Made by a program: the position numbers and the translations under genes. DNA of 64,000 nt from Desulfobacterales bacterium (GTDB lineage Bacteria > Desulfobacterota > Desulfobacteria > Desulfobacterales > Desulfosalsimonadaceae): NCBI GenBank assembly GCA_034520365.1, contig JAXHNP010000003.1:186001-250000 (forward strand), written 5' to 3'. Below the pieces are notes generated by a model. The model saw only the letters and a list, made by a program, of their open reading frames with translations, did not search any database and had not been told where the DNA came from. How positions within the stretch are numbered: position 1 is the first letter of the stretch; each line of letters begins with the position of its first letter. Positions 32,147 through 55,202 of this stretch are shown piece after piece.

Positions 32147-32200
32147 ATTTTACAGCCTTGATCCTTGACCATTGCTGTTTTTCACAGATATATTCCGCTC

Positions 32201-38178: not shown

Positions 38179-40200
38179 TTAAAGCAGATCGCGCAATATG
38201 CGTTCGTCCCAGCTCCGGCTGAAGATACGGCTATCGCCTTCCCAGGCGTCGAGTTCGGCCCGGATATGGAAATAAGTTGGGTCGGATGTCAGAAGGGTGC
38301 GGGCAACCGTCCGCACTTCCCACTCGCCCCGTTTAAATCGCCGCACCCACCGTGTCTCTCCCCGAAGCGAGGCGTAATTGTCGTCGGCGAAAACGTAGTT
38401 TTCCTCGACTTTCGCAGCGATCTCAAGGTCGATGTCATCCAGGCGGTATACCCCCTCGTCGTTGATGACTTCGAGCCGGGATTCGTCTTTGGCCAGGTTG
38501 CGGATCACTGTCCAGGACTGCCGGGTGGGCTGGATAAGAGACTTTCGTGGCGGCGGGGCGCCCTCGGGCGGTCCGAACGGCCGGAGCTCTTCGTCTTTCG
38601 GATCTTTTTTTCGCACAGGCAGGAGCAGCCGGCTGGTTTTCGTGTATATGGTGATCCGCGCCGGTTCGGGCGAAGGCCACGCCAGGGGCCAGTAAACCGT
38701 GGAAACCGCCAGGCGGATGCGGTTGCCGGCAGGGAATTTCTGGGCGATATCGTTTAGCTGCAACCGGATCCGGTAGCGTTTTCCGGGCTCCAGGGGCTGC
38801 GGATTGTCATGCCCGTTCCTGTGGGTCAGGTTGAGCAGGCCGTAGGTCACCCGGGTGGCCTTGTCGTCCGGCAGGATGTCGGACAGGCGCACGGCGATCA
38901 TGGCCACGGGTTTGTTTGCGGAAAGCTCCAGATCCGCCACAGGCGGACCCAGGATCTCCATGTCTGCTTCGAGCGGATCGGAGTCAAAGACCAGCGCGCC
39001 GCCGTCCTCATCGCGCTGGTCGTGGGGAAGGTCCGGCGGCGCGGCATAGGAGCACCATTTGCCCGCAAAAAGGCCCACGCTAAGCGGAGACTGAACCGAC
39101 AAGGGAATGCTTTCCCCGGTTTTTTCCTCCGGGCCGAGCCAGACAAACCCCAGATGAAGCACCTGCGTGGATATGTTTTTGCCCGGCCACGCGGTCTCCG
39201 CAACCCAGCGGCCCGGCCGGTAGTCGTAGTCCGTGGTCGGCGGCACGCTCTCCTGCATCCAGGCCCGGAGCATAGGCTCTTCCATGATCCCGGTCTCCTC
39301 TCCCTTGAGCCAGGTGTCCCACCAGCGAATCGCTTCCTGCAGAAAGCCGATGGCCGGGCCGGGATGGCCCATGTGCGGATACAGGTGGCTCCACGGACCG
39401 ATGAGCCCCTTGCGGGGAACGTCCAGGTTGGCCAAGAGTCGGAAAACCGCGTTGGAATACCCGTCAGCCCAGCCGCTCACGGCCATCACCGGACATTGGA
39501 TGGCGCTGTAGTCTTCACAGACCGAACCGTGCTTCCAGAAACCGTCGCGCCGCTGGTGCTTTAGCCACCCGGCCAGCCACAAGCCGTTTTTTTCAAGCCG
39601 CTCCATCCACATGTCCCGCCATGACTCTCCTACCAGCAGCGGATCGGGCGGACAGGCGTTGTGGCTGAACATGGTCGACGCCCAGGACAGATTGTCGCCC
39701 AGGAGGCATCCGCCCATGTGATGCACATCATCCGCGTACCGGTCATCCGTGGAGCAGACCGTGATGACGGCCTTCAGTTCGGGCGGCTGCAGGGCGGCGA
39801 TCTGCAGCGCGTTGAATCCGCCCCAGGAGATGCCCATCATGCCGACCGACCCGGTGCACCAGGGCTGGTTTGCAATCCATCGGATGACCTCCACGCCGTC
39901 GTCGAGCTCCTGCTGAAGGTATTCATCGCGCAGAATTCCTTCGGATTCTCCGGAACCGCGCAAATCGACGCGAACGCAGGCATAGCCGTGGCCGGCCATG
40001 TAGGTATGGGTCCGCTCGTCGCGCTCGGCGGTCAGATCGTTTTTGCGGTAGGGAATGTATTCCAGGATCGCGGGGACCGGGTGCTGCAGCGCATCTTCCG
40101 GCAGCCGGATACGGGCGGCCAGGCGGCACCCGTCGGACAGGGGGATCCATTCGTTTATTATCTCCCGGACCGGCCGGGGAAAAGAATCGACAGTTTTCAC
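38179..40200 (-). CDS. CocE/NonD-family serine hydrolase, copy A
   Basis: A 673-residue alpha/beta hydrolase of the X-Pro-dipeptidyl-peptidase S15 (CocE) type. The catalytic triad can be placed: Ser125 in GISWGGF, Asp246 in SGWADGY and His272 in GPWSH. A helical cap and C-terminal jelly-roll domain (from about 390, VQSPLSVGLFAGKWCS) follow as in CocE. No signal peptide, so it acts in the cytoplasm. It is the last gene of a three-gene run with an ATP-grasp enzyme and an ornithine cyclodeaminase-like enzyme (50 and 45 bp gaps). A close paralog lies at 42962. In a cyanophycin island a peptidase or amidase role on the polymer's breakdown products is a fair inference; the substrate is not known. 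GTG start with GGAAGG upstream. Confidence 0.85.
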   Translation of the reverse strand: MKTVDSFPRPVREIINEWIPLSDGCRLAARIRLPEDALQHPVPAILEYIPYRKNDLTAERDERTHTYMAGHGYACVRVDLRGSGESEGILRDEYLQQELDDGVEVIRWIANQPWCTGSVGMMGISWGGFNALQIAALQPPELKAVITVCSTDDRYADDVHHMGGCLLGDNLSWASTMFSHNACPPDPLLVGESWRDMWMERLEKNGLWLAGWLKHQRRDGFWKHGSVCEDYSAIQCPVMAVSGWADGYSNAVFRLLANLDVPRKGLIGPWSHLYPHMGHPGPAIGFLQEAIRWWDTWLKGEETGIMEEPMLRAWMQESVPPTTDYDYRPGRWVAETAWPGKNISTQVLHLGFVWLGPEEKTGESIPLSVQSPLSVGLFAGKWCSYAAPPDLPHDQRDEDGGALVFDSDPLEADMEILGPPVADLELSANKPVAMIAVRLSDILPDDKATRVTYGLLNLTHRNGHDNPQPLEPGKRYRIRLQLNDIAQKFPAGNRIRLAVSTVYWPLAWPSPEPARITIYTKTSRLLLPVRKKDPKDEELRPFGPPEGAPPPRKSLIQPTRQSWTVIRNLAKDESRLEVINDEGVYRLDDIDLEIAAKVEENYVFADDNYASLRGETRWVRRFKRGEWEVRTVARTLLTSDPTYFHIRAELDAWEGDSRIFSRSWDERILRDLL

Positions 40201-40250
40201 GCAAACCTTCCTCTGGTGCGCTGGTTATTGAAAAAAAACAGGCAAGCGGT

Positions 40251-41549
40251 TCAGATCGGAGCAAATTCGAAAGGCAGCATCTCCGTGCAACGCACGTACG
40301 TATCAAGAAGCGCTTTTCGATCCCGGCCGCCGATGAACAGGTGGCAGATGGCATAGCTGTAGCTGTCCTGCTCCAGCAGATCGGAGAGCTTCATTCCTTC
40401 TTTAATCTGCGGGTGGACGACCGTCCCCGGATAGCGCTTTTCCACCCTTTTGATTTCCTCATCCGTTGGCACCCGGGTAACCCGGGCGTCGCCGGAGAAA
40501 ATGCGCCAGAAGAATTTCGCCGCACACGAAAATTGCCCCTTGCGGCGCGGGAAATCGGGTTTTTCCCCGCAGGCCACCCGTACCGTTGCCTGCTGGTTGG
40601 ACTGTCCGTCCACCTTTTCGAAAATATCACTATGCGACTGGGAAACCCGGGGATTGATTTCCAGAAGCCAGATTCTATCCTGCTCCAGGTTCCAGAAAAA
40701 TTCAATATTAAAGGCGCAGTTGTCCAGCCCGGTATGAGCGATGACCGTTTTTGCAATGGCCACCATTTGTCCCTGAACTGCATCCGGCAGCACCGACGGG
40801 TATTCGTATCGGAAAAAACTGATGCCGTTTTCGTAGCGCAGTGAATCGACAAAACCCAGCGGCTGGATGTCTCCGTCCAGTACATATCCCTCCAGGGTGC
40901 ACTGCCAGCCGTTGATGATGCTTTCGGCCAGGAAGAAATGGCTTTCAACATCGGTTATCGACTCTGGAAGCTTTGCCTGTTGCAAAATATAGGTAAACGG
41001 TTCGGAAATCAGATGAATCTGGCTTCGGACCTGCACTATCGCCTCTTCAAACTGCTTTTGGTTTTCGATATAAAAACCCAGCATGGAGCCGCAGGCCTTA
41101 ATCGGTTTGATCCAGAAGGGTTCTTTCAGGCCGATATTTTCCCAGGCACTGTCGTCAAATGGGTCAAAAACCTGAAACCGGGGAATGTGCTGGGGGATTA
41201 CCTCCTTTTGCACCAGACGGCCCCAGTACTTGTGCTCGCACTTCAGGAGACTCTCCAGTGTGGGGCCGCGCTTGCCAAGCCGGGCGCAGAGTAAAGGAAG
41301 CATGGTGCTCACCGGAAAGTCCAGGTAAGCACCGATGCCGTCGATGGTTTTACCGGATTCGGTTTCCCACCGGCGAAGCTGCGCTTCGGCGCGCGCCAGC
41401 ATGTCCTTGACGGGGAAATCGTAGGTCTCCAGAATTTCGTCCGGATCCAGGACGCCGTAAAAGACGTAGCGTTCGGCATTGCGGATGGATTTGAGCCGGG
41501 CCAGGTCCGAATCGGTCAGCCCGATCAGAAAGACGTGTTTATGGGGCAT
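40251..41549 (-). CDS. ATP-grasp ligase of unknown specificity, copy A
   Basis: A 432-residue ATP-grasp enzyme. An N-terminal Rossmann-like domain (KHVFLIGLTDSDLARL) is followed by the ATP-binding domain: FWIKPIKACGSMLGF holds the ATP lysine, ECTLEGY-type CTLEGYVLDGD follows, and IWLLEINPRVSQSHSDIF (about 300-317) carries the Mg-binding glutamate and asparagine. ATP-grasp enzymes join a carboxylate to an amine through an acyl phosphate. A paralog with the same blocks lies at 46040, beside cyanophycinase. It is in a run with copy A of the CocE hydrolase. Which peptide or amide is made is unknown; arginine or aspartate derivatives are the obvious candidates from context. Confidence 0.82.
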   Translation of the reverse strand: MPHKHVFLIGLTDSDLARLKSIRNAERYVFYGVLDPDEILETYDFPVKDMLARAEAQLRRWETESGKTIDGIGAYLDFPVSTMLPLLCARLGKRGPTLESLLKCEHKYWGRLVQKEVIPQHIPRFQVFDPFDDSAWENIGLKEPFWIKPIKACGSMLGFYIENQKQFEEAIVQVRSQIHLISEPFTYILQQAKLPESITDVESHFFLAESIINGWQCTLEGYVLDGDIQPLGFVDSLRYENGISFFRYEYPSVLPDAVQGQMVAIAKTVIAHTGLDNCAFNIEFFWNLEQDRIWLLEINPRVSQSHSDIFEKVDGQSNQQATVRVACGEKPDFPRRKGQFSCAAKFFWRIFSGDARVTRVPTDEEIKRVEKRYPGTVVHPQIKEGMKLSDLLEQDSYSYAICHLFIGGRDRKALLDTYVRCTEMLPFEFAPI

Positions 41550-41594
41550 GGATTTTTTTCTCCGGGTGCATGAAAGGGAATTTTCTTTGTGGGA

Positions 41595-42692
41595 TCATTG
41601 TTTTTTGAAGTTGTTCCACAGGTTGACCATAAAATCCTGGACGTTGGTCAAAATGGCCACTGCCTGGGCGGAGCCGCGATTGGCCAACTTGTCCGCGCTG
41701 AATTCGGTCATGTCCACGATATAGAGATAAACGGGCCGGATCGTCCGGTCGTCCATGACGTGGTAGCTGGGTATCATGTTACCGAATGCGATGGCGTGAA
41801 GCTGCGTGGCCATGGCGATCACGGTTGTCGATTTGCGGGCATGAAAGCGCATGGCGTCCTGGGACCGATACGCATCCGGAATCACTTCCGGCAGCGGGCC
41901 GTCATCCCGAATGGATCCGGCAAGGACATATGGCACATGGTGCTTTTCGCAGGCATACATGATGCCGTCGGTCAGGTTCAGCTCTTCTATGGCCTTTGCG
42001 ATGGAGCCTCTCCTGCGTACTTCGTTCAGTAGATCCAGATGATTGTAATGGCCCATGGGCAGCAGGTGCTGGGAATAGATGTCCTGGCCCAGGGCGGTGC
42101 GAAAATAGGCGGCTTCCAGGTCATGGGTGGCCAGGGCGTTTCCGGCCAGCAGGGCGTGGCAGTACCCGCTCTCGATCATCCCCTGCATAGCCTCTCGGCT
42201 GTCCTTGTCAAAGGCAACCGCCGGGCCCAGAACCCAGCTGATATAGCCGTTGTCCCGGTCGTGCTGCAAAATCCGGTACAAATCGTCGTAAGACCGGGAA
42301 AAGGGGGTTTCCCGGGTTCCCCGGGTCCGGAAGGAGAACTTGTCGGTCGTTTGTCCGCCGGGCGGGTCAAAACCGCTCGTATGGACATAGATGCCTTCCT
42401 CGCCGTTTTCCGTGCGTCCAATTGCCACCAAGTCACCCTGCCGGACATTTCTGGGCTCAATCACATCCAGAGCTTCGTCCCGCAGAACCAGAACCGCATC
42501 CATCCGGCTTTCCGGGGCCAGAAGCCACGATCCGCCGCCCATGTGGACATATTCCGGGTAGTTCGATGTCCCGTGAAAATCTGCCGGAACCACGCCGTCT
42601 GTGATAGCGGGTTTGAACCGGGCGGCCGGTGCATTTTTCAGCTCCGGACAGGAGAAGTCCGGCGGGGTATAGGCGGGTAAGATCGTTTGCAT
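41595..42692 (-). CDS. TIGR00300-type ornithine cyclodeaminase-like enzyme
   Basis: A 365-residue protein. HYNHLDLLNEVRRRGSIAKA, ITSGIMYE-like DGIMYACEKHHVPYVLAGSIR and the block DDGPLPEVI, then ATQLHAIAFGNMIPS and ANRGSAQAVAIL, match the family of archaeal-type ornithine cyclodeaminases and the C-terminal part of cyanobacterial AgrE/ArgZ. Family members convert ornithine to proline and ammonia; a nickel-pincer cofactor has been linked to the group. It starts the run ending with the CocE and ATP-grasp genes. It would drain ornithine obtained from polymer-derived arginine into proline. AGGA precedes the ATG. Confidence 0.78.
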   Translation of the reverse strand: MQTILPAYTPPDFSCPELKNAPAARFKPAITDGVVPADFHGTSNYPEYVHMGGGSWLLAPESRMDAVLVLRDEALDVIEPRNVRQGDLVAIGRTENGEEGIYVHTSGFDPPGGQTTDKFSFRTRGTRETPFSRSYDDLYRILQHDRDNGYISWVLGPAVAFDKDSREAMQGMIESGYCHALLAGNALATHDLEAAYFRTALGQDIYSQHLLPMGHYNHLDLLNEVRRRGSIAKAIEELNLTDGIMYACEKHHVPYVLAGSIRDDGPLPEVIPDAYRSQDAMRFHARKSTTVIAMATQLHAIAFGNMIPSYHVMDDRTIRPVYLYIVDMTEFSADKLANRGSAQAVAILTNVQDFMVNLWNNFKKQ

Positions 42693-42961
42693 GGTGTTTT
42701 TCCTGTTATACTAGTTTTAAGGAAATTATCCATCCGGCACGGACGGGCCCTGCACAGGAAATTGCCGGCGTCATTGCCAAATGAATGCAGTAGATGCGCA
42801 AACCAGGATAAACCAGGATAAATCTTGTTTTATTCCCGGTTTGCCATTATACTATTAATAATAAACAAACGTGGCGGAACCTGCAAACTTTTCAGCCATA
42901 TTTTATGGCCATGTCGCCATTTTCAGCAAGTCTTTGCAACCCGTTCCAGGATGGACAACCC

Positions 42962-45019
42962 ATGAAAACAATTACCGATTTTCCCTGCCCGGTCCGGGAA
43001 GTGGAGCACGCGTGGATTCCCCTGTCCGACGGCACCCGCCTGGCGGCCCGGCTTTGGATTCCGGAGGCAGCTGATCAACAGCCCGTGCCGGCCATTTTGG
43101 AGTACATCCCCTATCGCAAGCGCGATTTTGAAGCCGTTGGAGATGCCATTACCCACGGATATTTCGCCGGCCATGGATATGCCTGCGTCCGGGTCGATCT
43201 GCGCGGCGCCGGGGAGTCTGAGGGCGTGCTTCGGGACGAATACCTCCCCCTGGAGCAGCAGGACGGCCTGGAAGTGCTCCGGTGGATCGCTGCCCAGCCC
43301 TGGTGCAGCGGAAAGATCGGTATGATCGGCATCTCCTGGGGCGGATTCAACGGCCTTCAGATCGCCGCCCTGCAGCCGCCGGAGCTGAAGGCCGTCATTA
43401 CGGTGTGCTCGACGGACGATCGCTATGCCGATGACGTTCATTATATGGGCGGATGCCTCCTGGGCGACAATTTGTCCTGGGCGTCGACCATGTTTGCCTA
43501 CAATGCGTGCCCGCCCGATCCGCTGCTGGCAGGAGAGTCGTGGCGGGACATGTGGATGGAACGGCTTGAAAAAAGCGGGTTGTGGCTGGCCGAGTGGCTT
43601 TCCCACCAGCGGCGTGACGACTACTGGCGCCACGGCTCCGTATGCGAGAATTTTGCGGCCATCCAGTGCCCGGTCATGGCGGTCAGCGGATGGGCCGACG
43701 GGTATTCCAATGCGGTATTCCGGCTGCTGGCCGGACTCAAAACACCGCGCAAAGGGCTTATCGGTCCCTGGAGCCACAAGTACCCCCAATTCGGCGTACC
43801 CGGCCCGGCCATCGGGTTTCTCCAGGAAGCCCTGCGCTGGTGGGATACCTGGCTGAAAGGAGAAGAGACCGGGGTCATGGAAGAGCCTATGCTTCGTGTC
43901 TGGATGCAGGACAGCGTTGCGCCCTCCACCCGCTACAAAAAGCGCCCCGGCCGCTGGGTGGCCGAAACGTCCTGGCCATCTGAACGGATCGCCGCAAGGC
44001 AGTTTTACCTGGACGGCGCACACCTGCTTTCGGAAGATGCAGCGGCGGCCTCCCCTTACTCATCCCCGGATACAGCCGCGCCGGAACCGGCTGCCATGAC
44101 CATCCAGTCTCCGCTCAGCGTGGGGTTGTATGCCGGCAAATGGTGCTCCTATGCCGCGCCGCCGGATCTTCCCCACGACCAGCGCGAAGAAGATGGCGGC
44201 TCCCTGGTATTCGAAACCCTGCCGCTTGAGGAGCCATTGGAAATTCTGGGCGCACCGGTTCTTCACCTCGAGCTTTCCGCCAGCCGGCCCATGGGCATGG
44301 TCGCCGCCCGGCTCTCCGACGTGGCCCCGGATGACAAGGCCACGCGCATTACCTACGGGATGCTCAACCTCTGCCACCGAAACGGGCACGACAAGCCCGA
44401 ACATCTGGTGCCGGGCCGGACATATACGGTGTCGTTTCCGCTAAACCATATCGCCCAGCACTTTGCGGCCGGCAACCGCCTGCGCCTCTCCATATCCACC
44501 TCCTACTGGCCCCTGGCCTGGCCGCCGCCCCGTCCGGTGCGGCTTACGATCCATACCGGCGCAAGCCGCATTACGCTTCCCGGGCGCAAGCCGCAGGAAG
44601 GTGACAAGGAGCTTCGCCCGTTTGCCGGTCCCGAAGGCGCCCCGCCGCCGGCCATGACCCGCCTGGCGCCACAGCACCTCAAATGGCGGGTGGTCCGCGA
44701 TCTCGGTGACGACCTTTCCACCCTCGAAGTGATCAAGGACGAGGGGGTGTTCCGGTTTGATGACATCGATTGGACGGTCGGCAGCAAAACCCTGGAATGG
44801 TACTCCTACCAGGGCGATGATTTTGACTCGGTCCGGGGAGAGACCCTCTGGCAGCGCAGCTTTACCCGGGGCGACTGGGGTGTGCGGACTACCACCCGCA
44901 CCGTACTGACATCCACCGAGAGCCATTTTGTCCTGCATGCCGAACTCGATGCCTGGGAAAACGACGAGCGGGTATTTTCCCGCAACTGGAAATACGAGAT
45001 CCCCCGGGATCACGTATAA
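42962..45019 (+). CDS. CocE/NonD-family serine hydrolase, copy B
   Basis: A 685-residue paralog of the gene at 38179. Both share the same opening (PVREV/PVREI, then WIPLSDG) and triad: Ser125 in GISWGGF, Asp in SGWADGY and His in GPWSH. Copy B differs by a longer segment before the jelly-roll domain (about residues 345-370) and by its own C-terminal sequence. The ATG at 42962 has AGGATGG upstream. It is the first gene of a plus-strand pair with the isoaspartyl peptidase, divergent from the ornithine cyclodeaminase gene. The paired arrangement suggests different substrates for A and B. Confidence 0.85.
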   Translation: MKTITDFPCPVREVEHAWIPLSDGTRLAARLWIPEAADQQPVPAILEYIPYRKRDFEAVGDAITHGYFAGHGYACVRVDLRGAGESEGVLRDEYLPLEQQDGLEVLRWIAAQPWCSGKIGMIGISWGGFNGLQIAALQPPELKAVITVCSTDDRYADDVHYMGGCLLGDNLSWASTMFAYNACPPDPLLAGESWRDMWMERLEKSGLWLAEWLSHQRRDDYWRHGSVCENFAAIQCPVMAVSGWADGYSNAVFRLLAGLKTPRKGLIGPWSHKYPQFGVPGPAIGFLQEALRWWDTWLKGEETGVMEEPMLRVWMQDSVAPSTRYKKRPGRWVAETSWPSERIAARQFYLDGAHLLSEDAAAASPYSSPDTAAPEPAAMTIQSPLSVGLYAGKWCSYAAPPDLPHDQREEDGGSLVFETLPLEEPLEILGAPVLHLELSASRPMGMVAARLSDVAPDDKATRITYGMLNLCHRNGHDKPEHLVPGRTYTVSFPLNHIAQHFAAGNRLRLSISTSYWPLAWPPPRPVRLTIHTGASRITLPGRKPQEGDKELRPFAGPEGAPPPAMTRLAPQHLKWRVVRDLGDDLSTLEVIKDEGVFRFDDIDWTVGSKTLEWYSYQGDDFDSVRGETLWQRSFTRGDWGVRTTTRTVLTSTESHFVLHAELDAWENDERVFSRNWKYEIPRDHV

Positions 45020-45049
45020 TTGTGCGAAAATACCAACAGGAGCAGACCC

Positions 45050-45967
45050 GTGGCCGCAAAATACACCCTTTTGATCCATGCCGGCTGTGAAGGCATCACC
45101 CGGCAATATTACGGCCCCGAAGCCGAACAGGAGCATTTGTTGTTTCTGCGCAAAAGTCTTGCAGCGGGACGGGCGGTGCTGGACGTCGGCGGCCGGGGGT
45201 TGGATGCGGTCTGCGCCGCGGTCAAAGTCCTGGAAGACTGCCCTTTGTTCAACGCCGGACGCGGGTCCGTGTTTACCCATGGCGGAAAAATCGAGATGGA
45301 TGCATCCGTTATGCGCGGCGAGGACCTTGCCGCCGGGGCCGTGGCCGGGGTCACCGGCATCAAAAATCCGGTGCGCGCCGCGGCCTTTGTGCTGGAAAAA
45401 TCTCCCCATGTCCTGCTCATTGGCCCGGGTGCGGAGCGATTTGCCGAAATCCAGGGCCTGGAAACAGCGGATCCCGAGTATTTCCAAACCGCCAGGCGCC
45501 GGGAAGAATACCTTGCAGCCCAAAAGCCGGCCGGGGAGCAGTTCGGCACGGTGGGGGCGGTCTGCCTCGACAGGGCGGGAAACCTCTTTGCAGCTTCGTC
45601 CACGGGGGGGATCACCGGCAAGGAGTACGGCCGCGTTGGGGATTCGCCGGTGATCGGGGCGGGTGTTTACGCGGACAACGCTTCCTGCGCTGTCAGCTGC
45701 ACGGGCGAGGGGGAATTTTTTCTGCGCCGGGCGGCGGCCAAGCGGATCGCCGCCCTGGTGGAGTTCGGCGGGTTTTCCCTGGAAGCAGCCGCTGCGGCGG
45801 TCCTGGAAAACATCCGAACGCTCGGGGGAAAAGGCGGTCTCATTGCCGTGGATGCGGCCGGCCGGGCCGCCATCTCCTTTACCACCCGGGGGATGTTCCG
45901 CGGCCTGGCCCGGCAGGACGAAGCCGACCGGGTGGCTATGTTCGGCCCGCCGCTCAATTGGCAGTAG
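45050..45967 (+). CDS. Isoaspartyl peptidase/type 2 asparaginase (Ntn hydrolase)
   Basis: A 305-residue self-processing N-terminal-nucleophile hydrolase. Cleavage before Thr167 in EQFGT-VGAVCLD creates the catalytic threonine; FNAGRGSVFTHGGKIEMDAS and STGGITGKEYGRVGDSPV are the flanking family blocks. In cyanophycin breakdown, such enzymes split the beta-Asp-Arg dipeptide released by cyanophycinase into aspartate and arginine. The GTG at 45050 has GGAG 8 nt upstream and is preferred over TTG at 45020. It is 30 bp after the CocE gene B. Confidence 0.88.
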   Translation: MAAKYTLLIHAGCEGITRQYYGPEAEQEHLLFLRKSLAAGRAVLDVGGRGLDAVCAAVKVLEDCPLFNAGRGSVFTHGGKIEMDASVMRGEDLAAGAVAGVTGIKNPVRAAAFVLEKSPHVLLIGPGAERFAEIQGLETADPEYFQTARRREEYLAAQKPAGEQFGTVGAVCLDRAGNLFAASSTGGITGKEYGRVGDSPVIGAGVYADNASCAVSCTGEGEFFLRRAAAKRIAALVEFGGFSLEAAAAAVLENIRTLGGKGGLIAVDAAGRAAISFTTRGMFRGLARQDEADRVAMFGPPLNWQ

Positions 45968-46039
45968 GTCGGGCGCGCATGCGCGCCCCGAACAAAAACC
46001 AAAATAAGATAAATGAACCAGGAAATACCTGCATATCCG

Positions 46040-47467
46040 TCACGGCCTGGTCATATCCTGCACCCCGCCTGTCAACGGCGTGGACTCTTTCACCGGCAGC
46101 TCCACGGGAGAACTCAGCACCTGGATGGCGATCTGCGGGTCGGTTTCCGGCATAATCTGCTGGGCTTTTTCCGGCAAAAGCACCGGTATGGTAAGATCCT
46201 CGTAGGAAAACCGCAGCATCTCCCGAACCTTTCGGTATTTGTCCAGAAGCTCCTTCTGGCTGTCCGCGCCCAGGTAGATAAAGGCGGTGGCATAGCTGTA
46301 GCTGTCCTGCTCCGGAATCTCCGAGAGCCTCATCCCGACTTTGCCCTGGATATCGATCAGCATGCCCGGCACTTCTTCGTTGATTTGAAGGATATTTTCT
46401 TTGGTTGGGATCCCGGTGATCCGCTTGTCCTGGTATTCCCGAAGGAAAAATTTTCCGGACACCCGGAATTTCCCCTGCCGCTTCGGAAACGCAGGCTCCC
46501 GGTTGAGCGCCACGTCGAGCATGATCTGGTGGTTTGAGGCGCCGTCCACCTTCATGAAAAGATCGGAATGCGACTGGGGAATGCGGGTGTTGATCTCCAG
46601 AAACCAGATTTTGTCCCGTTTTTCATCCCAGAAAAATTCGAGGTTGAAGGCGGATTGGTCAAAACCGATGTATGTCATAACCTTTTCGGTGATTTCTGTC
46701 ATTTTTTTTCGCACGCGTCCGGGCAGCGCCGATGGGTACTGATACCGGGAAAAAGTGGTCCGGTTGGAATCCCGGATGGAATCGATAATGCCGTATGTAT
46801 GCACTGCACCGTTTCGGACGTAGCCTTCCAGGGTACACTGGTGCCCGGATATGATCTGCTCGGCCACGCAAAAGGAGGAATTCACCCGGGCCACTTCCTC
46901 GGGCAGCACCACCATGTCCAGCAGGTAGTCAAAAGGCTTGAATAACCCGATTTTCTCCCGCAGGATTCCGACAGCCCGTTTAAAGGCCCTTTTATTGTTG
47001 ATCCGGAATCCCAGCTGGGAGGCGGTGGATTTGACCGGCTTGATCCAGAAGGGAAAATCAAGGGAGATTTTTTCAAGGGCGTTGTCGTCAAACGGGTCGA
47101 ACGTGCAAAATCGGGGGATGTGCTCGGGTATGACCTGTTTTTGCTCCAGGCGGCTCCAGTACTTGTGTTCAGATTTCAGGACGCTTTCGAGACTCGGGCC
47201 GGGAACATTGAACTTTGCGCACAGAATCGGTGTCATGGTGCTTACCGGGAAATCCGTGTATCCGACAATGGCGTCAACCGGGCCGTCAAAGTTTTGCAGC
47301 TCCTTCTCGGCCAGCGCCAGCATGTCGGCCAGCCGGTACTGGCCGCTGTCGATTAAGTCATGAATATCAAGTAAGCCGATAAAGTTGCATTCATCGGCAT
47401 GTTTAAGGGATTGCAGCATCTGCAGGTTGAAATCATCAAGGCCGATAATAAATACGTTTTTCTTCAT
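46040..47467 (-). CDS. ATP-grasp ligase of unknown specificity, copy B
   Basis: A 475-residue paralog of the gene at 40251: the same N-terminal domain (KNVFIIGLDDFNLQML), FWIKPVKSTASQLGF, QCTLEGYVRNGA and IWFLEINTRIPQSHSDLF align block by block. Copy B has about 40 extra residues at the C-terminus. In the metal-binding motif EINTR replaces EINPR. It follows cyanophycinase by 38 bp on the same strand, so it should be co-expressed with polymer degradation. No ligase is known to be needed for that step, which makes the pairing notable. Confidence 0.82.
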   Translation of the reverse strand: MKKNVFIIGLDDFNLQMLQSLKHADECNFIGLLDIHDLIDSGQYRLADMLALAEKELQNFDGPVDAIVGYTDFPVSTMTPILCAKFNVPGPSLESVLKSEHKYWSRLEQKQVIPEHIPRFCTFDPFDDNALEKISLDFPFWIKPVKSTASQLGFRINNKRAFKRAVGILREKIGLFKPFDYLLDMVVLPEEVARVNSSFCVAEQIISGHQCTLEGYVRNGAVHTYGIIDSIRDSNRTTFSRYQYPSALPGRVRKKMTEITEKVMTYIGFDQSAFNLEFFWDEKRDKIWFLEINTRIPQSHSDLFMKVDGASNHQIMLDVALNREPAFPKRQGKFRVSGKFFLREYQDKRITGIPTKENILQINEEVPGMLIDIQGKVGMRLSEIPEQDSYSYATAFIYLGADSQKELLDKYRKVREMLRFSYEDLTIPVLLPEKAQQIMPETDPQIAIQVLSSPVELPVKESTPLTGGVQDMTRP

Positions 47468-47505
47468 TTTCTTCGAATTTTCTCCGATCCATTGTAAAAG
47501 ACTCG

Positions 47506-48369
47506 TCAGCCGGTCCGGTACGGAACCAGTTTCCGCTCGGACAGGTAAAATACATCACCGGGTACCAGAACATGCAAGCTTAAATTTTCTATGGAGATGA
47601 GCTCTCCTTCGCTGATGGAGGCCAAATTGGTGTGCCGGATGCCCGAGCCGTCCACCACGATGATCAGGCCTGAACCGACGGTCTCCTGGATGTCGCCCTT
47701 CCGGATCAGCAGGCCCGTGTCTTCGCCCAGCCCGATGCCCAGGTAGGACGGATTGGCGGCAACCGCCTGGAACAGGCGCCCGATCCGGCTGCGTTTTACA
47801 AAGTGGGTGTCGATAATCACTTTTTGAATAAACCCGAAACCGCTGCTCAGCTTGACCTCTCCCTTTCTCAGCGCCTCGTGGCTGCTCCCCTCGTAGATCA
47901 TGGTATCGGACATGGCCATGGCCCCGGCGCTGGTTCCGGCAATCACCACAGGCTCGTGGATATAGCGTTCATGGATGACATCCAGAAATTCCGTGCCGCC
48001 TAAAATCGTGGTCAGCCGCAGCTGGTTTCCGCCGGTGAACAGAAATCCTTCGGCTTCCCGGGCCCGCTGAACCATCTCTTCATGCAGCGCATCTTCCCGT
48101 TCCCGGATATCCATCACCCCGACGTTGTCAAACCCCAGGTTTTTAAATGCCTTGATGTACTGCTTCCCGGCTTTTTCCGGGATGCCCGATGCAGTGGGAA
48201 TGATTTCGATGCGATGGGTGGCGCCGGTTAGCGACTCACAGAACCTCGTAATAATGGCGGATTCAATTTCTGGAATCTCTCCGTTGCCGATTTCCTCTTT
48301 GCCGTTGGTTTCGGAAGGAAGATAGAGATCGCCGCCGATAATGAGTAAAATGCCTTTTGTTTTTTTCAT
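47506..48369 (-). CDS. cphB: Cyanophycinase
   Basis: A 287-residue serine peptidase of family S51 that cuts cyanophycin to beta-Asp-Arg dipeptides. The nucleophile is in VIAGTSAGAMAMSD; GGDLYLPS, IPTASGIPEKAGKQY and FTGGNQLRLTTILGGT are further family blocks. There is no signal peptide, so it is the intracellular type. The start is the ATG at 48369; the reading frame is open further upstream without better starts. It is divergent from cphA across 134 bp and precedes the ATP-grasp gene B. Confidence 0.94.
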   Translation of the reverse strand: MKKTKGILLIIGGDLYLPSETNGKEEIGNGEIPEIESAIITRFCESLTGATHRIEIIPTASGIPEKAGKQYIKAFKNLGFDNVGVMDIREREDALHEEMVQRAREAEGFLFTGGNQLRLTTILGGTEFLDVIHERYIHEPVVIAGTSAGAMAMSDTMIYEGSSHEALRKGEVKLSSGFGFIQKVIIDTHFVKRSRIGRLFQAVAANPSYLGIGLGEDTGLLIRKGDIQETVGSGLIIVVDGSGIRHTNLASISEGELISIENLSLHVLVPGDVFYLSERKLVPYRTG

Positions 48370-48503
48370 AAACTGATTATAATTACTTGTGTGGAGTAAG
48401 GCAAGAAAGTATTTTTTTATTTTTGGCCTTCCAAATGGCAGTTTAGGGGTTGAATTTGTATTAATCAATAAGGACAGTTGCAACAAAAGGAAAAGTCGTA
48501 ATC
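48370..48503. promoter_or_regulatory. Divergent cphB-cphA control region
   Basis: The 134 bp between the two start codons must hold both promoters. AAGGAAAAG lies about 10 nt before the cphA ATG. The region is AT-rich; I could not place consensus boxes or a palindrome with confidence. Arginine- or nitrogen-dependent control is plausible but not shown. Confidence 0.4.
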
Positions 48504-51176
48504 ATGAAAATTTTGGAAACAAGGGTCCTGCGCGGCCCTAATTACTGGTCCAATTGGCGGCACAACCTCATCGTCATGCGCGTTGACTTAGAAGAGATGG
48601 AACACTACCCCTCCAACACCATCCCCGGTTTTGCGGAGAGGCTTGAGAAGCTCCTTCCGTCCCTTTATGAGCACCGGTGCTCCCGGGGGTATGAAGGCGG
48701 CTTTCTGGAGCGATTGAAAGAGGGAACCTGGATGGGGCATGTAATGGAGCACGTGGCGCTGGAAATCCAGATCCTGGTCGGCATGCAGTGCGGGTTCGGG
48801 CGTACCCAGACCGATGTGCCGGAAGGGATCTACAATGTGGCCTTTGACTACGAAGTGGAGCCGGCGGGATTATATGCGGCGCAAGCCGCCTTTGACATTG
48901 TCCGGGCCATAATCGCCAAAGAGCCTTATGACGTGGAAAAGGACATCCTGCGCTTGCGCGAAATCCGGGAGGAGGAGCGGTTCGGGCCGAGCACCCAGTC
49001 GATTGTCGATGCGGCGAAAAAACGCAATATTCCGCTGCTTAGGCTCAATAATTACTCGCTGGTCCAGTTGGGCTGGGGGGTTTATCAGCAGCGGATTCAG
49101 GCCACCGTTACGGGCCGCACCAGCAGCATCGGGCTTGAAATCGCCTACGACAAGGAAGAAACCAAGAACATGCTCTACAACAACGCCTGCCCGGTTCCAT
49201 ACGGGTATGTGGTCTATTCCGTCGAGGAAATGGAAAAGGCCGTCTACCGGCTCGGCTTTCCCGTGGTCATTAAACCCGTGGACAGCCACCACGGCAAGGG
49301 CGCCACCATCAACATCCGGAACAAAGACGATGCGAAAACGGCCTTTGAAGCGGCCCGGTATCATTCCAGCCGGGTGATTGTCGAAAAATATATCCACGGA
49401 AACGACTATCGGCTGCTGGTGATCGACAACCGGTTCGTCGCAGCGGCCCGCCGCATTCCGGCCCATGTCACCGGCGACGGGAAATCCACTATCCGGGAGC
49501 TGATCGACGAAGTCAACAGCGACCCGCGCCGGGGGTACGGGCATGAAAAGATGCTGACCGAAATCACCGTGGACGCCATGACCCTGCGCCTTCTGGAGCA
49601 GGCGGGCTATACCGCGGAAACCGTGCTGCCGGAAGGAGAAATTTTCTACCTCAAGACAACGGCCAACCTGAGCACCGGCGGCGTCTCCGAGGATGTAACC
49701 GATACGGTGCATTCCTACAACATCTTCATGGCCGAGCGGGTAGCCCGGATTATCGGCATCGACATCTGCGGCATCGACGTGATTGCCCCGTCGCTTACCG
49801 AGCCCATCAGCGAAAACAAGGGGGCGATCATCGAAGTCAACGGCGCACCGGGATTTCGCATGCATCTTTCCCCAAACGCCGGCCAGCCGAGAAACGTGGC
49901 GGAACCGGTGCTGGACATGCTTTTCCCCGGCGGGCATCCGGCCCGGATTCCCATCATTTCTGTGACCGGCACCAACGGCAAGACGACCACGGTCCGCCTG
50001 ATCGCCCATATTATGCGAATGAGCGGCAAAAATATCGGCTGCACCACCACAGACGGCATCTACATCCAAAACCAGCTGCTATACAAAGGAGACTGTTCCG
50101 GTCCGGAAAGCGCCCGGTTTGTGCTGCGGGATCCCACGGTGGACTGCGCAGTTTTCGAAACCGCCCGCGGCGGAATCCTTCGCTCCGGCTTAGGCTATGA
50201 CATGGGCGATGTCGGTGTTGTCACTAACGTGACCTCGGACCACCTGGGTCTGAGCGGTATTCATTCCATAGAGCAGCTGACGCGGCTCAAATCAATCGTG
50301 GTGGAAAACATCGACCCGGCGGGATATGCGATTTTGAATGCCGATGACGAGCATGTATATTCCATGCGGGAAAATATTGGCTGCAATGCGGCTCTTTTCA
50401 GCATGGATCCGGACAATCCCCGGATATATGAGCACTGCGCCGCCGGCGGCCTTGCAGCCGTATACCTGGACGGGAGCATTGTCTTGCGCAAAGGGGACTG
50501 GGAAATTATCGTGGACAGGGTGATCAACATCCCCTTGACGTATTCCGGCAAGGCCGTCTTTCAAATTCAAAACGTCCTGGCCGCATGCCTGGCCGCCTTT
50601 GTCCGGGACGTGAAGACCGAGGATCTGCGCGCCGCCCTGCAGACGTTTTTTCCGTCATCAGCCCAGCTTCCCGGCCGGATGAATATTTTCGAATTGGAAG
50701 GCTTCCGGGTGCTCATCGACTATGCACATAATCCGGCGAGCATGGAAGCGATCGGCCGGTTTGTCGGCACGCTGGGCGTATCTTCCAGCGTGGGCATCGT
50801 GGCGGGAACCGGAGACCGGCGGGACGAGGATCTGCGGGCATATGGCCTGGTCGCAGCCCGGCACTTCGACCGGGTCATTGTCTGGGAGGACCACGACTAT
50901 GCACGGGGGCGCGATAGCCGCGAAATCATGGATCTGGTGATAGAAGGCGCCCGAAGCGTCCAGCCGGAAACCGACCCGCAGATAATATTTGACGAGGATG
51001 ACGCCGTCGACCACGCCCTCGGGCAAGCCGCCCCCGGTTCGATCATTTGCATTTTCACCGGCCGAATCGAAGAGATGACCGCCAAAATAAAAGCACTAAA
51101 GGAGCAGGAAGTGGATTTGACCATCACCCAGGCAGAAATCCCCAATATCGGATTTCAGTCGGAATATCGGCAGTAA
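48504..51176 (+). CDS. cphA: Cyanophycin synthetase
   Basis: The 890-residue enzyme polymerises aspartate and arginine to cyanophycin, adding each with ATP. Three parts are visible: an N-terminal domain (1-160) with GHVMEHVALEIQ (about 78); an ATP-grasp domain with VVIKPVDSHHGKGA (about 253) and IIEVNGAPGFRMH, which adds Asp; and a Mur-ligase-like domain with VTGTNGKTTT (about 489) and LIDYAHNPASMEAI (about 738), which adds Arg. Length and order fit CphA1. The N-terminal domain of some CphA1 enzymes is reported to trim polymer into primers; the HxxEH here would suit a metal site, but that is an inference. It is a single gene divergent from cphB. Confidence 0.96.
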   Translation: MKILETRVLRGPNYWSNWRHNLIVMRVDLEEMEHYPSNTIPGFAERLEKLLPSLYEHRCSRGYEGGFLERLKEGTWMGHVMEHVALEIQILVGMQCGFGRTQTDVPEGIYNVAFDYEVEPAGLYAAQAAFDIVRAIIAKEPYDVEKDILRLREIREEERFGPSTQSIVDAAKKRNIPLLRLNNYSLVQLGWGVYQQRIQATVTGRTSSIGLEIAYDKEETKNMLYNNACPVPYGYVVYSVEEMEKAVYRLGFPVVIKPVDSHHGKGATINIRNKDDAKTAFEAARYHSSRVIVEKYIHGNDYRLLVIDNRFVAAARRIPAHVTGDGKSTIRELIDEVNSDPRRGYGHEKMLTEITVDAMTLRLLEQAGYTAETVLPEGEIFYLKTTANLSTGGVSEDVTDTVHSYNIFMAERVARIIGIDICGIDVIAPSLTEPISENKGAIIEVNGAPGFRMHLSPNAGQPRNVAEPVLDMLFPGGHPARIPIISVTGTNGKTTTVRLIAHIMRMSGKNIGCTTTDGIYIQNQLLYKGDCSGPESARFVLRDPTVDCAVFETARGGILRSGLGYDMGDVGVVTNVTSDHLGLSGIHSIEQLTRLKSIVVENIDPAGYAILNADDEHVYSMRENIGCNAALFSMDPDNPRIYEHCAAGGLAAVYLDGSIVLRKGDWEIIVDRVINIPLTYSGKAVFQIQNVLAACLAAFVRDVKTEDLRAALQTFFPSSAQLPGRMNIFELEGFRVLIDYAHNPASMEAIGRFVGTLGVSSSVGIVAGTGDRRDEDLRAYGLVAARHFDRVIVWEDHDYARGRDSREIMDLVIEGARSVQPETDPQIIFDEDDAVDHALGQAAPGSIICIFTGRIEEMTAKIKALKEQEVDLTITQAEIPNIGFQSEYRQ

Positions 51177-51519: not shown

Positions 51520-51873
51520 ATGCATGAACTGCCGGTAACCGAACGTATACTCAATATTGTGCTCAAACACGCCGAGCGCAACCGGGTCAGCCAAATTGTC
51601 TCGATCACCCTGACCGTCGGCGAGCTGAGTGAACTCGAAGATGAATGGATACAGCATTATTTCGATTACCTGAGCAAGGATACGATCGCCGCCGGCGCAA
51701 AACTGAAAATTGAACGCACGCCGATCGTGATTCGCTGTAATGCCTGCGGCCGGAGCGAATCCGTCAGCAAAGCGCAGCTGGGCGAAGTGGTTTGTCCGCA
51801 ATGCGGGGCGAGTGCCGATTTTACCCTGGTCTCCGGCCGCGAGTACTATATCAAAGAAATGGAGGCCCAGTAA
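51520..51873 (+). CDS. hypA: Hydrogenase nickel-incorporation protein HypA
   Basis: A 117-residue nickel metallochaperone. The N-terminal MHELP provides the nickel ligands (His2, Glu3), and CNACG with CPQCG the structural zinc site. It delivers nickel to hydrogenase large subunits together with HypB, the next gene (TAATG overlap). No other hyp or hydrogenase gene is in the window. Confidence 0.95.
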   Translation: MHELPVTERILNIVLKHAERNRVSQIVSITLTVGELSELEDEWIQHYFDYLSKDTIAAGAKLKIERTPIVIRCNACGRSESVSKAQLGEVVCPQCGASADFTLVSGREYYIKEMEAQ

Positions 51874-52550
51874 TGGATAAGATCAAACTGATTGAGATTA
51901 AGGAAGACATTCAAGCAGACAATGCATTGGTGGCCCAGGAACTAAGGGATCGGCTGCTGCGGGAGCAGACCCTGATGATCAATCTCATGTCTTCCCCGGG
52001 CTCCGGAAAAACGAGTCTTTTGCTGCGCACCATTGAAGCCCTGAAAGATGAAATCAGCATCGGGGTCATTGAGGCCGACATCGATTCAGTGGTGGATTCC
52101 GAAAAAATCGCCGAAACCGGTATCCCCAGTGTTCAGCTGCGAACCGGCGGCTTCTGCCACCTGGATGCCACCATGGTAAAAAAGGGGCTGGATGGCCTGG
52201 ACAACCCATCCCTGGACCTGGTATTCATCGAAAACGTGGGCAACCTGGTCTGCCCGGCCGAGTTTGACACCGGGGCCATTAAAGATGCGATGATACTGAG
52301 CGTTCCGGAGGGTGATGACAAACCGCTTAAATACCCGCTGATGTTTACCAAGGCCAATGCGCTGGTGGTTAACAAAATTGATTATATGCAGCTCTCGGAT
52401 TTCGATACAACGCGTTTAAAATCCCATGTAAACCGGCTCAACCCGGATATAGCGCTTTTTGAAGTGTCCTGTAAGACCGGAGAGGGCATCAGCCAATGGA
52501 CGGACTGGCTGAAAAAAACCATAGCCGAGTTCAACGGCACGGCCGGATAA
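51873..52550 (+). CDS. hypB: Hydrogenase nickel-incorporation GTPase HypB
   Basis: A 225-residue GTPase with the P-loop SSPGSGKTSLL (about 40), EADIDSVVDSEKI, the metal-site residues GGFCHLDA and the guanine-specificity motif NKID. There is no histidine-rich N-terminal nickel store. It partners HypA. Because the nearby TIGR00300-type enzyme family may use a nickel-based cofactor, a service beyond hydrogenases is conceivable but unsupported. Confidence 0.95.
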   Translation: MDKIKLIEIKEDIQADNALVAQELRDRLLREQTLMINLMSSPGSGKTSLLLRTIEALKDEISIGVIEADIDSVVDSEKIAETGIPSVQLRTGGFCHLDATMVKKGLDGLDNPSLDLVFIENVGNLVCPAEFDTGAIKDAMILSVPEGDDKPLKYPLMFTKANALVVNKIDYMQLSDFDTTRLKSHVNRLNPDIALFEVSCKTGEGISQWTDWLKKTIAEFNGTAG

Positions 52551-52764: not shown

Positions 52765-53523
52765 ATGGATCAAAACAGCAATAATGACCGCAATGAATTG
52801 GAATTCGGCATCCATCTGGACAATCTGAGCGAATCCGAAACAGAATCCGACCGCCCTGCTGAAGCCACGGAACCGGCTGAGGCGGCGATCAGCCATACCG
52901 AATCGACGGAGCCGCACACCGCAGACACAACCGGAGCCAAAGATGCCCCGGATGCCCCTTATGAGCCCCCGGAAAAGGGTGTGGAACAACTGTTTCCGGC
53001 AATCAAGGGGATTGAGCAGCAGCTTGAAAATCTGGCCGACGCCTTTGAGAGCAAAATCAAATATGACGAGCACAAGAACAAGGTCATTGATGACCTGCAC
53101 CAATCCCTTCAGGATTATCGGAACGGGCTTCTTAAAAAATATTTGCAACGAATTTTTACCGATGTCATAAAAATCATTGATGATGCGCGGAAACTGATCG
53201 GTCACTATCGGGAGCAGCCCCTTTCCGAGGAAAACAATGCCAAACTGCTCCAGTATTTGGAAGATATGGCCCAGGAACTGGAAGATATGTTTGCCTGGGA
53301 AGGCGTGGAGGCGTTTACCACGGAAGGCGATACGCTTGAACCCACCCGCCAGCGCGTGGTGAATAAAATTGAAACCGATGATCCGTTAAAGGATAAAACG
53401 ATCGCCCAGCGGCTTCGCCCGGGGTATGAATGGGACGGCAAGGTGATCCGCCCGGAGATTGTTTCAATCTATATCTGCAATCGTGAATCCACGGCTGATA
53501 ATGCTGATAACAAGGAGATCTGA
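52765..53523 (+). CDS. Divergent GrpE-like nucleotide exchange factor
   Basis: A 252-residue protein. The first 75 residues are acidic and low in complexity; a long helix (about 80-130) leads to the block IAQRLRPGYEWDGKVIRPEIV, which matches the beta-wing end of GrpE (LxxGYxxxxxVIRPAxV). GrpE proteins release ADP from Hsp70. The gene overlaps the Hsp70 gene by one base (TGATG), which supports a dedicated pair. It is too divergent to be the housekeeping GrpE. Confidence 0.75.
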   Translation: MDQNSNNDRNELEFGIHLDNLSESETESDRPAEATEPAEAAISHTESTEPHTADTTGAKDAPDAPYEPPEKGVEQLFPAIKGIEQQLENLADAFESKIKYDEHKNKVIDDLHQSLQDYRNGLLKKYLQRIFTDVIKIIDDARKLIGHYREQPLSEENNAKLLQYLEDMAQELEDMFAWEGVEAFTTEGDTLEPTRQRVVNKIETDDPLKDKTIAQRLRPGYEWDGKVIRPEIVSIYICNRESTADNADNKEI

Positions 53524-55202
53524 TGGAGAAAAAAGGTAAACGCATTTTCGGAATCGACTTGGGCACCACCTATTCTTCCATTTCTTACGTGGATGAGTTC
53601 GGAAAGGCAGTGATCATTCCCAATGCCGAAAATGAACGGATTACGCCCTCGGTGGTATTTTTTGACGGGGATTCCGTTGTGGTCGGGGATGTGGCCAAGG
53701 AAAGCTCCAAACTATACCCCAATGAAGTGGTCAGCTTTGTCAAGCGGGCCATGGGCGAGCCGAATTTTGTATTTGAATACAATAATGAAGATTACCGGGC
53801 GGAAGAAATTTCCGCCTATATACTGAAAAAGCTGGCCCAGGATGCGGAGCAATATCTTGGCGAGAAAGTCACGGACGTGGTCATCACCTGTCCGGCCTAT
53901 TTCGGCATTAATGAGCGGGAGGCCACCCGGAAAGCCGGCGAGATCGCCGGATTCAATGTCCGTCAGATTATCAACGAACCCACGGCCGCGGCCATCGCCT
54001 ATGGCACGCTGGACACGCACGAAAGCCGCGTGGTGCTGGTCTATGACCTGGGCGGCGGCACATTTGACGTCACCATGATCGACATTCAAAAGGATTCGGT
54101 GGAGGTCGTCTGCACGGGCGGGGATCACAATCTGGGCGGCAAGGATTGGGATGATCGGATCGTCGCCTATATGGTGGAAAAGTACCAGGAAGAGACCCAG
54201 AGCCAGGAGGATATCCTGGAGGACCCGGACACCTGGCAGGACCTGCAGCTTTCGGCGGAAAAGGCCAAAAAGATATTAAGTCAGCGGAGCAAGACCCCGA
54301 TTTCGGTCACCCACGGGGGCGAGCGGGTAAAAATCGTTCTGGAACGGGAAAAATTCGAGGAAGTCACTGCGGACCTTCTGGAGCGGACCATTGATTTTAC
54401 CCGGGATATGCTAAGCGCCGCCCGGGATAAAGGCCATGAAAAATTTGACGAAATCATCCTGGTCGGCGGCTCCACCCGGATGCCCCAGATTCAGGAGCAG
54501 ATCAAGCAGGCATTCGAGGTTACCCCGAAGGTGTTTGATCCGGATGAGGCGGTGGCCAAGGGGGCGGCCATTTATGGCTGGAAACTCAGCCTAAACGACG
54601 GCCTGATCCAGCGCCTGGCGGAAAAGACCCAGAAATCGGTGGAGGAATTTGCCAATCTCTCGGAAATGATTGAAACCAAGCAGGTCAAACCGGAGGACTT
54701 CAAGGCTGCGGCCCAGCAAGTGGCCGATGATACCGGCTACACGCTGCCCACCATTCAAAGCGCCATGCTAAAGGTCAAAAATGTGACCAGCAAAAGCTTC
54801 GGCGTGGTCGCGCATAACCCGAAGAACGAAGAAATCATATTCAATCTGGTATTGCGAAATACGGCCGTTCCCATAAGCCGCAAAAAGAACTTCTTTACAG
54901 CGGTGGAAAACCAGCAGACCGTTCTCATCCGGATCATGGAGAGCGAAACCAGCAGCGTGGAAATTCCGCTGGACCATGCGGTTGAAATCAAAACCGCGGT
55001 ATTGAATCTCCCGCCCGAGCTGCCGGCGGATCTGCCGATTGAAATCACCTTCAGCTTAAACGAGGAAGGGCGCCTGCATATCACCGCCCTGGAAACCAGT
55101 GAAACCCGGCAGGTGGAGGTGGTGCTGGATACGGCCTCGGTCATTCAGGGTGAGGCTCTGGAAAAGGCCAAGGCCCGCTCCCAGAGCCTGGTGGTTCATT
55201 AA
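53523..55202 (+). CDS. Short Hsp70 (DnaK-like) without lid domain
   Basis: A 559-residue Hsp70. The ATPase domain is complete: GIDLGTTYSSI (10-20), VVITCPAYFG, NEPTAAAIAYG, YDLGGGTFDVT (about 175) and LVGGSTRMPQI. An unusual helical insert of about 60 residues (370-425, QKSVEEFANLSEMIETKQVK) separates it from a beta substrate-binding domain. The protein ends at ALEKAKARSQSLVVH, with no alpha-helical lid and no EEVD tail. It would bind substrates weakly or specifically. It lies in an operon with a GrpE-like gene and a J-like membrane protein. Confidence 0.9.
   Translation: MEKKGKRIFGIDLGTTYSSISYVDEFGKAVIIPNAENERITPSVVFFDGDSVVVGDVAKESSKLYPNEVVSFVKRAMGEPNFVFEYNNEDYRAEEISAYILKKLAQDAEQYLGEKVTDVVITCPAYFGINEREATRKAGEIAGFNVRQIINEPTAAAIAYGTLDTHESRVVLVYDLGGGTFDVTMIDIQKDSVEVVCTGGDHNLGGKDWDDRIVAYMVEKYQEETQSQEDILEDPDTWQDLQLSAEKAKKILSQRSKTPISVTHGGERVKIVLEREKFEEVTADLLERTIDFTRDMLSAARDKGHEKFDEIILVGGSTRMPQIQEQIKQAFEVTPKVFDPDEAVAKGAAIYGWKLSLNDGLIQRLAEKTQKSVEEFANLSEMIETKQVKPEDFKAAAQQVADDTGYTLPTIQSAMLKVKNVTSKSFGVVAHNPKNEEIIFNLVLRNTAVPISRKKNFFTAVENQQTVLIRIMESETSSVEIPLDHAVEIKTAVLNLPPELPADLPIEITFSLNEEGRLHITALETSETRQVEVVLDTASVIQGEALEKAKARSQSLVVH

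Follow-up and report, generated by a model that had tools for sequence, protein, structure and literature searches.

Gene content of the island

The window, a 64,000-nucleotide stretch of the genome of a Desulfobacterales bacterium, carries between positions 38179 and 51176 an island in which the genes of a cyanophycin locus lie among two ATP-grasp ligases and two CocE/NonD hydrolases. A first-pass annotation of this DNA had listed eight genes here, and we confirmed all eight at the same coordinates. Cyanophycin synthetase is encoded by cphA1 (48504–51176, + strand), which scored 1219.5 bits against TIGR02068 (cut-off 850) over model positions 1–861 of 862. The cyanophycinase gene cphB, whose longest open reading frame (ORF) spans 47506–48486 (−), with translation probably beginning at the Met near 48369, scored 228.1 bits against TIGR02069 (cut-off 126.6), and its nearest PDB entry was the cyanophycinase 7uqv (6.3e-54). 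An IaaA-type isoaspartyl peptidase of the N-terminal nucleophile (Ntn) hydrolase class is encoded at 45020–45967 (+); it scored 311.3 bits against PF01112 (gathering score 27) and fell below the cut-off of the E. coli-type equivalog PRK10226 (288.6 vs. 567). The two CocE/NonD genes, cocE1 (38179–40200, −) and cocE2 (42905–45019, +), encode S15-type alpha/beta hydrolases that scored 221.5 and 252.8 bits against TIGR00976 (cut-off 66.3), the former also matching PF02129 and PF08530. ATP-grasp A (40251–41549, −) and ATP-grasp B (46040–47467, −, directly downstream of cphB) resemble L-amino acid ligases and scored 35.8 and 36.1 bits, respectively, against PF13535. The eighth gene, odc (41595–42692, −), encodes a nickel-pincer nucleotide (NPN)-dependent variant of ornithine cyclodeaminase (NF052526, 590.3 bits; cut-off 440).

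The gaps between the ORFs, and their strands, suggest four transcription units: an apparent odc-graspA-cocE1 operon (gaps of 45 and 50 bp), an apparent cocE2-iaaA operon whose genes abut (the TTG start of iaaA being uncertain), an apparent cphB-graspB operon (gap of 38 bp), and cphA as a fourth, separate unit. The odc gene adjoins an ATP-grasp gene in a near relative as well (locus L024). Some 9 kb from odc, the window also holds a hypB-like nickel insertion gene (51792–52550, +).

We compared the window CphA with the solved CphA1 structure 7lg5, its nearest PDB entry. The two aligned across residues 1–856 and were identical at all six G-domain positions checked (215, 267, 323, 394, 396, and 458), positions assigned to primer or Asp recognition or to catalysis in CphA (PMC9427784, in part). 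The N-domain motif Cx19HxxEH of the primer site starts at residue 59; this primer-generating motif frees CphA from the need for a primer and is found in 83% of CphA1 proteins (PMC9262961, in part). Judged by sequence, CphA, CphB, and IaaA thus appear to constitute an ordinary, complete cyanophycin locus, by which the polymer would be made, cut to beta-Asp-Arg, and the dipeptide split.

The ATP-grasp and CocE proteins

The two ATP-grasp proteins are 48% identical to each other, and neither reached the cut-off of any NCBIfam family. Across 35 aligned sequences, a Lys, which we take to be the ATP-binding residue, and a Glu, an Asn, and an Arg, presumably of the metal and catalytic site, are invariant. 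An AlphaFold model of ATP-grasp B (predicted local distance difference test [pLDDT] score 84.4) had as its nearest PDB match the L-amino acid ligase 3vot (Z 32.8 over 386 residues, 3.2 Å), followed by 4dim (29.3), YwfE (29.0), BacD (28.9), and RizA (28.7); 4dim is a phosphoribosylglycinamide synthetase, an ATP-grasp enzyme of the purine type. Foldseek likewise ranked 3vot first. A sequence search placed 3vot third (1.8e-5 over most of the ATP-grasp protein); the two chains ranked ahead of it, both of urea amidolyase, matched a short segment. The predicted fold is therefore closest to that of the L-amino acid ligases BL00235, BacD, and RizA. A third, distant ATP-grasp protein (26% identical) is encoded elsewhere in the window's own genome (locus L021 on C6, 9465–10835, −), where it adjoins an amidohydrolase gene.

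CocE1 and CocE2 are 68% identical, and the catalytic triad (the Ser of GISWGG, the Asp of SGWADGY, and the His of GPW[SA]H) is invariant in all 14 aligned CocE sequences. The CocE2 model (mean pLDDT 74.5) was nearest to cocaine esterases, then to amino-acid ester hydrolases and PepX; at 95.2 and 76.2 bits, the two proteins fell below the cut-off of 642 for the PepX subfamily NF003780.

A two-gene module repeatedly linked to cyanophycin genes

We collected ATP-grasp loci as the best 80 of at least 548 confirmed relatives, with queries taken from two relatives. Forty-seven of these loci are from Halomonadaceae, the remainder from Desulfobacterota, Rhodobacterales, Rhodovibrionaceae, Nitriliruptoraceae, Spirochaetota, Gemmatimonadota, and others. 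When the 80 loci and further ones were counted together, excluding hits shorter than 900 bases and five with fewer than 700 bases downstream, a CocE gene lay directly downstream on the same strand in 98 of 122 ATP-grasp copies and within 5 kb in 107, leaving 15 copies with no CocE gene in that distance. ATP-grasp and CocE genes are therefore a conserved two-gene module.

The first-pass annotation had named recurrence of the ATP-grasp genes beside cphA and cphB in unrelated genomes as support for its idea, and the neighborhood search showed such recurrence: cphA or cphB was present at 30 of the 80 loci, which span Halomonadaceae, Rhodobacterales, Rhodovibrionaceae, and Desulfobacterota, and beside four of the five ATP-grasp genes in the Rhodobacterales genome sample described below. 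Gene order differs among these lineages. At 15 Halomonadaceae loci, iadA-cphA-cphB is divergent from grasp-cocE; eight Rhodobacterales loci read cphB-cphA-grasp-cocE with a divergent iaaA; Ferruginivarius has cphB-cphA-grasp; and the six Desulfobacterota loci show several orders, such as iaaA-cocE-cphB-grasp-cphA at L101. As the identical gene set is found together in further phyla, the grouping seen in the island goes beyond chance. On a tree of 104 ATP-grasp proteins, with Shimodaira–Hasegawa-like approximate likelihood ratio test (SH-aLRT) support only and with the L104 and L110 translations ended at their first stop, the cph linkage label requires eight changes or more, some unlinked labels stemming from short contigs. 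IaaA or IadA was also encoded at 27 of 34 cph-linked ligase loci (30 of the 80, three further Rhodobacterales loci, and L107).

The Cx19HxxEH motif is kept in all 32 CphA proteins of ligase-linked loci with matches longer than 2300 bases. It is missing from CphA at ligase-less loci in 10 Rhodobacterales (L124–L133; 10 of the 11 ligase-less Rhodobacterales CphA loci were opened), in L135, from the window's own phylum, and in L136, from Pseudomonadales. A second CphA-like ORF follows cphA at the grasp-less loci L124–L133 and L136, though not at L135.

Among the 43 genomes with an unlinked ATP-grasp locus (the L034 genome was left out), CphA was encoded elsewhere in 25 and was not found in 18. 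In all 20 Halomonadaceae loci opened for a distant CphA, cphB, cphA, and iadA stood together (at L144, CphA is in two pieces). Neighbor clustering, one NCBIfam scan, and Pfam scans of chosen neighbors yielded no recurring third gene beside standalone pairs. Single cases were seen at two loci. At L169 (5613–7915, −), the ORFs for a glutaminase and the ATP-grasp protein share one base, and CocE lies upstream, an arrangement hinting at a glutamine-containing product. At L107, a Rhodovibrio-like locus (9178–11137, −), genes for an Amidoligase_2 protein and a glycine betaine-binding OpuAC protein lie between cphB and the ATP-grasp gene.

Co-occurrence of ligase and CphA

We also examined genome samples drawn without regard to these genes, scoring the best 4, 7, or 15 CphA candidates per genome. 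Among 121 Halomonadaceae genomes, 61 encode the ATP-grasp ligase and 38 encode CphA, and all 38 of the latter encode both, the two genes lying no more than about 1.3 kb apart in 15. When the 19 genomes first reached via ATP-grasp loci were removed, all 26 CphA genomes still fell within the 42 ATP-grasp genomes of the remaining 102 (hypergeometric 1.3e-13, uncorrected for ancestry). Every sampled Halomonadaceae genome with CphA thus has the ligase, and not the reverse, which indicates a partner pathway.

This one-way co-occurrence holds for the sampled Halomonadaceae only. The 196 Rhodobacterales genomes included five with the ATP-grasp ligase, 15 with CphA, and four with both, each pair within about 120 bp; excluding the seed genome, the figures were four, 14, and three of 195. 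Six of 194 genomes of the order Pseudomonadales had the ligase and three had CphA, with both in two (the centre genome and one reached via a locus). From the window's own phylum, 198 genomes yielded three with CphA and two with a close ATP-grasp relative (the window genome and G088), only one having both, as well as an additional distant ATP-grasp relative (26%) from the same family; G088 carries an ATP-grasp/CocE pair, and the 20 kb read contained no cph gene. The ligase was found in 10 of 398 Pseudomonadota genomes. As CphA is common without the ligase outside Halomonadaceae, cyanophycin as such needs no ligase; and as CphA without the ligase and the ligase without CphA are both frequent, the tie is optional in both directions.

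Importer-linked relatives of CocE

In a plasmid collection, CocE relatives occurred in 459 records, mostly from rhizobia, and ATP-grasp matches in 11. We opened 13 CocE neighborhoods among the 25 matches listed for these 459 records. ATP-binding cassette (ABC) importer genes stood immediately beside CocE in 10 of the 13; on the Mesorhizobium amorphae plasmid they lay 1 kb off, past a short ORF, and on that of Mesorhizobium AR07 3.6 kb away. By gene layout we take most of these importers to be peptide ABC systems, and one, in Roseivivax marinus, is annotated as oligopeptide/dipeptide. An Ancylobacter plasmid carries two CocE genes interleaved with a glycine betaine importer. No ATP-grasp match was found on any of the 13 plasmids, in a search confined to the plasmids themselves. 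In a CocE tree built from a hand-picked subset of sequences (leaving out the short row L112 and the two-piece L198 CocE), the Roseivivax marinus protein was the sole plasmid-region CocE to fall within the clade of ligase-linked proteins (98 SH-aLRT), where it neighbors the cyanophycin-linked CocE proteins of Rhodobacterales. These importer-linked relatives support a small peptide or amide, taken up by import, as a candidate CocE substrate.

The CocE relatives at L192 and L193 adjoin trimethylamine methyltransferase-like or glycine betaine ABC genes, and some members of the family may therefore act on betaine derivatives. A Mesorhizobium ATP-grasp gene near a CocE gene was set aside; its product shares only about 22% identity with the ligases of the window.

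Other features of the window

Just 3' of the island lie a GrpE-like and then an HSP70-like gene (52765–55202, +). A single gene at 32165–35179 (+) fuses an archaeo-eukaryotic primase of the TOTE-conflict-system type, a ResIII-type helicase, and a PLD domain.

A possible role for the module

No cph gene was found in the DNA fetched for 50 of the 80 loci (some contigs being short), and 18 of the 43 genomes with an unlinked copy lack CphA altogether. The outcome that the first-pass annotation had named as contradicting its idea, the genes lying mostly away from cphA and cphB, is thus partly seen alongside the 30 linked loci. CocE relatives are far wider spread than the pair. We therefore regard the pair as a module in its own right, frequently recruited, and the island as what would be a complete cyanophycin locus joined to two copies of it. 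Our preferred explanation, which we hold tentatively and at somewhat less than even confidence, is that the module both forms and hydrolyzes a small peptide or amide serving as a halophile osmolyte or soluble nitrogen pool, with cyanophycin as the inert reserve of its amino acids. The ATP-grasp enzyme, if of the L-amino acid ligase type, would couple a pair of small molecules that probably include at least one amino acid, and the CocE/S15-type serine hydrolase would cleave the ligase product again. The product would be a small peptide or amide that serves halophiles as an osmolyte or as soluble nitrogen, and its amino acids might be moved into, and drawn from, cyanophycin as an osmotically inert reserve. 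A compatible solute is suggested by three things together: most of the 80 loci belong to Halomonadaceae and other saline taxa, ligase and hydrolase genes are paired, and relatives of the hydrolase are linked to importers. The Halomonadaceae asymmetry would suit a solute system that came first and later gained cyanophycin as its reserve. Halophiles use a neutral dipeptide and a derivatised amino acid as osmolytes, and the enzymes of their synthesis were unexplored as of 2005 (PMC1224877, in part). In a broader form that we consider unlikely, halophiles of several phyla would make an undescribed peptide-type osmolyte with the ligase, recycle it through CocE, and switch between solute and granule with cyanophycin as the osmotically silent reserve, a switch of which the literature searched gave no description, while neighbors such as roseobacters scavenge released peptide with an ABC importer and the same kind of hydrolase.

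Several observations weigh against this explanation. The ligase occurs without any CphA in 18 of the 43 genomes with an unlinked copy. The two genes also part company within the samples: 23 of 61 Halomonadaceae ligase genomes lack CphA, as do four of six in Pseudomonadales, and the ligase is absent from 11 of 15 CphA genomes in Rhodobacterales, one of three in Pseudomonadales, and two of three in the window's own phylum. The co-occurrence test in Halomonadaceae ignores shared ancestry. The halophile pattern may itself be a sampling effect, the 80 loci having been picked by similarity and the habitat of several (for example L025, L029, L031, and L100–L102) not being evident from their names. 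Paraburkholderia and Sphingobium also hold ATP-grasp relatives, though distant ones (about 32%). The structural match to 3vot is just 3.5 Z over that to the purine-type 4dim. Finally, CocE relatives are far commoner than the ATP-grasp/CocE pair, as the 459 plasmid records attest, and some plasmid CocE genes adjoin betaine-type genes.

We weighed this explanation against five others. The first-pass annotation had read the additional enzymes as an extension of the cyanophycin pathway that caps or alters beta-Asp-Arg or builds a variant polymer. The linkage on which that idea drew is real: cphB-graspB and cocE2-iaaA share apparent operons with cyanophycin genes, and the ligase is present in all 38 Halomonadaceae CphA genomes. 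Capping or a variant polymer, however, finds no support in the sequence of the window CphA, because the protein aligns full length and its motif and six functional residues are intact; together with the CphA-less genomes that hold the pair (23 of the 61 ligase-bearing Halomonadaceae and 18 of the 43 with an unlinked copy), this makes the proposal improbable. We give little credence to CocE as an alternative isoaspartyl dipeptidase for beta-Asp-Arg, a role that has been proposed for a cocaine-esterase-like gene in one genome (PMC10206079, in part) and that would suit the abutment of cocE2 and iaaA in the window, but that leaves IaaA or IadA already at hand at 27 of 34 loci with ligase and cph genes, and CocE-ligase pairs in genomes where CphA was not found. 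Highly improbable is a ligase that makes primers for CphA: although its predicted fold is dipeptide-ligase-like and no CphA was seen without it in the Halomonadaceae sample, the window CphA and all 32 ligase-linked CphA proteins carry the Cx19HxxEH motif, the motif-less proteins sit at ligase-less loci (10 Rhodobacterales, L135, and L136), the opposite of what is predicted, and both the CocE partner and the ligase copies without CphA would be left unexplained. All three of these alternatives fit worse than a small-peptide module.

The remaining two alternatives concern the nature of the product. The pair might make a bioactive or signaling dipeptide, akin to bacilysin or rhizocticin, with its proximity to cyanophycin genes reflecting shared nitrogen regulation only. 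BacD and RizA, which function in antibiotic pathways, are among the nearest folds; no recurring tailoring or export gene, however, was found among the neighbors clustered or scanned, and the nesting of CphA genomes within ligase genomes in Halomonadaceae would go unexplained, so that we regard this possibility as rather unlikely. Alternatively, CocE may act on betaine-type esters or amides, with the ligase conjugating a betaine to an amino acid. Neighbors of CocE relatives include glycine betaine ABC genes in Ancylobacter, a trimethylamine methyltransferase-like gene in Fuscovulum, and, in other regions, genes for Rieske or FAD oxidoreductases, and OpuAC is encoded beside cph and ligase genes at L107. 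Most of the 13 plasmid regions, by contrast, have what we take to be the layout of a peptide-type importer (one being annotated as such), and those betaine-linked CocE proteins that were placed in the tree branch outside the ligase-linked clade; we doubt that this alternative is correct.

Cyanophycin is viewed as a store of nitrogen. A module that makes an osmolyte, if that is its role, would tie nitrogen granules to salt adaptation and would give a testable function to two groups of enzymes that lack their own family name.

Comparison with known systems

No description of an ATP-grasp/CocE module was found in the titles and abstracts searched, a scope that mostly excluded subscription papers and preprints, nor any paper that combines cyanophycin with CocE by name, or ATP-grasp, CocE, and halophiles. 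The nearest account, PMC10206079, uses the term cocaine esterase: it describes one such gene, adjacent to a CphA-cyanophycinase pair, that might encode a dipeptidase, and the word “ligase” is absent from its main text (seen in part). The module described here gives a different reading of that gene.

The clustering of cphA1, cphB, and iaaA/iadA-type genes has itself been described (PMC10206079, in part), and the island shares with this cphA1-cphB-iaaA/iadA arrangement its CphA1, its CphB, and an IaaA-family gene; it differs from known cyanophycin loci by its two ATP-grasp/CocE pairs and its NPN-type ornithine cyclodeaminase. The ATP-grasp proteins are like the L-amino acid ligases BL00235 (3vot), BacD/YwfE, and RizA in predicted fold and in conserved core residues, yet only 18% identical to 3vot and below every NCBIfam cut-off. 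The CocE2 model resembles cocaine esterases, alpha-amino acid ester hydrolases, and X-Pro dipeptidyl peptidases in fold (Z about 22, 19, and 18, respectively) and keeps their triad, whereas identity to cocaine esterase is about 23% and a C-terminal beta-rich region (about residues 570–704) lies beyond the cocaine-esterase fold, outside the whole-model PDB matches. In the N-acetylglutaminylglutamine amide (NAGGN) system, a dipeptide osmolyte is served by a ligase together with a peptidase. The island module would work in a like manner. The NAGGN synthetase model TIGR03103 was matched in the island by CphA alone, and weakly (185.1 vs. a cut-off of 569).

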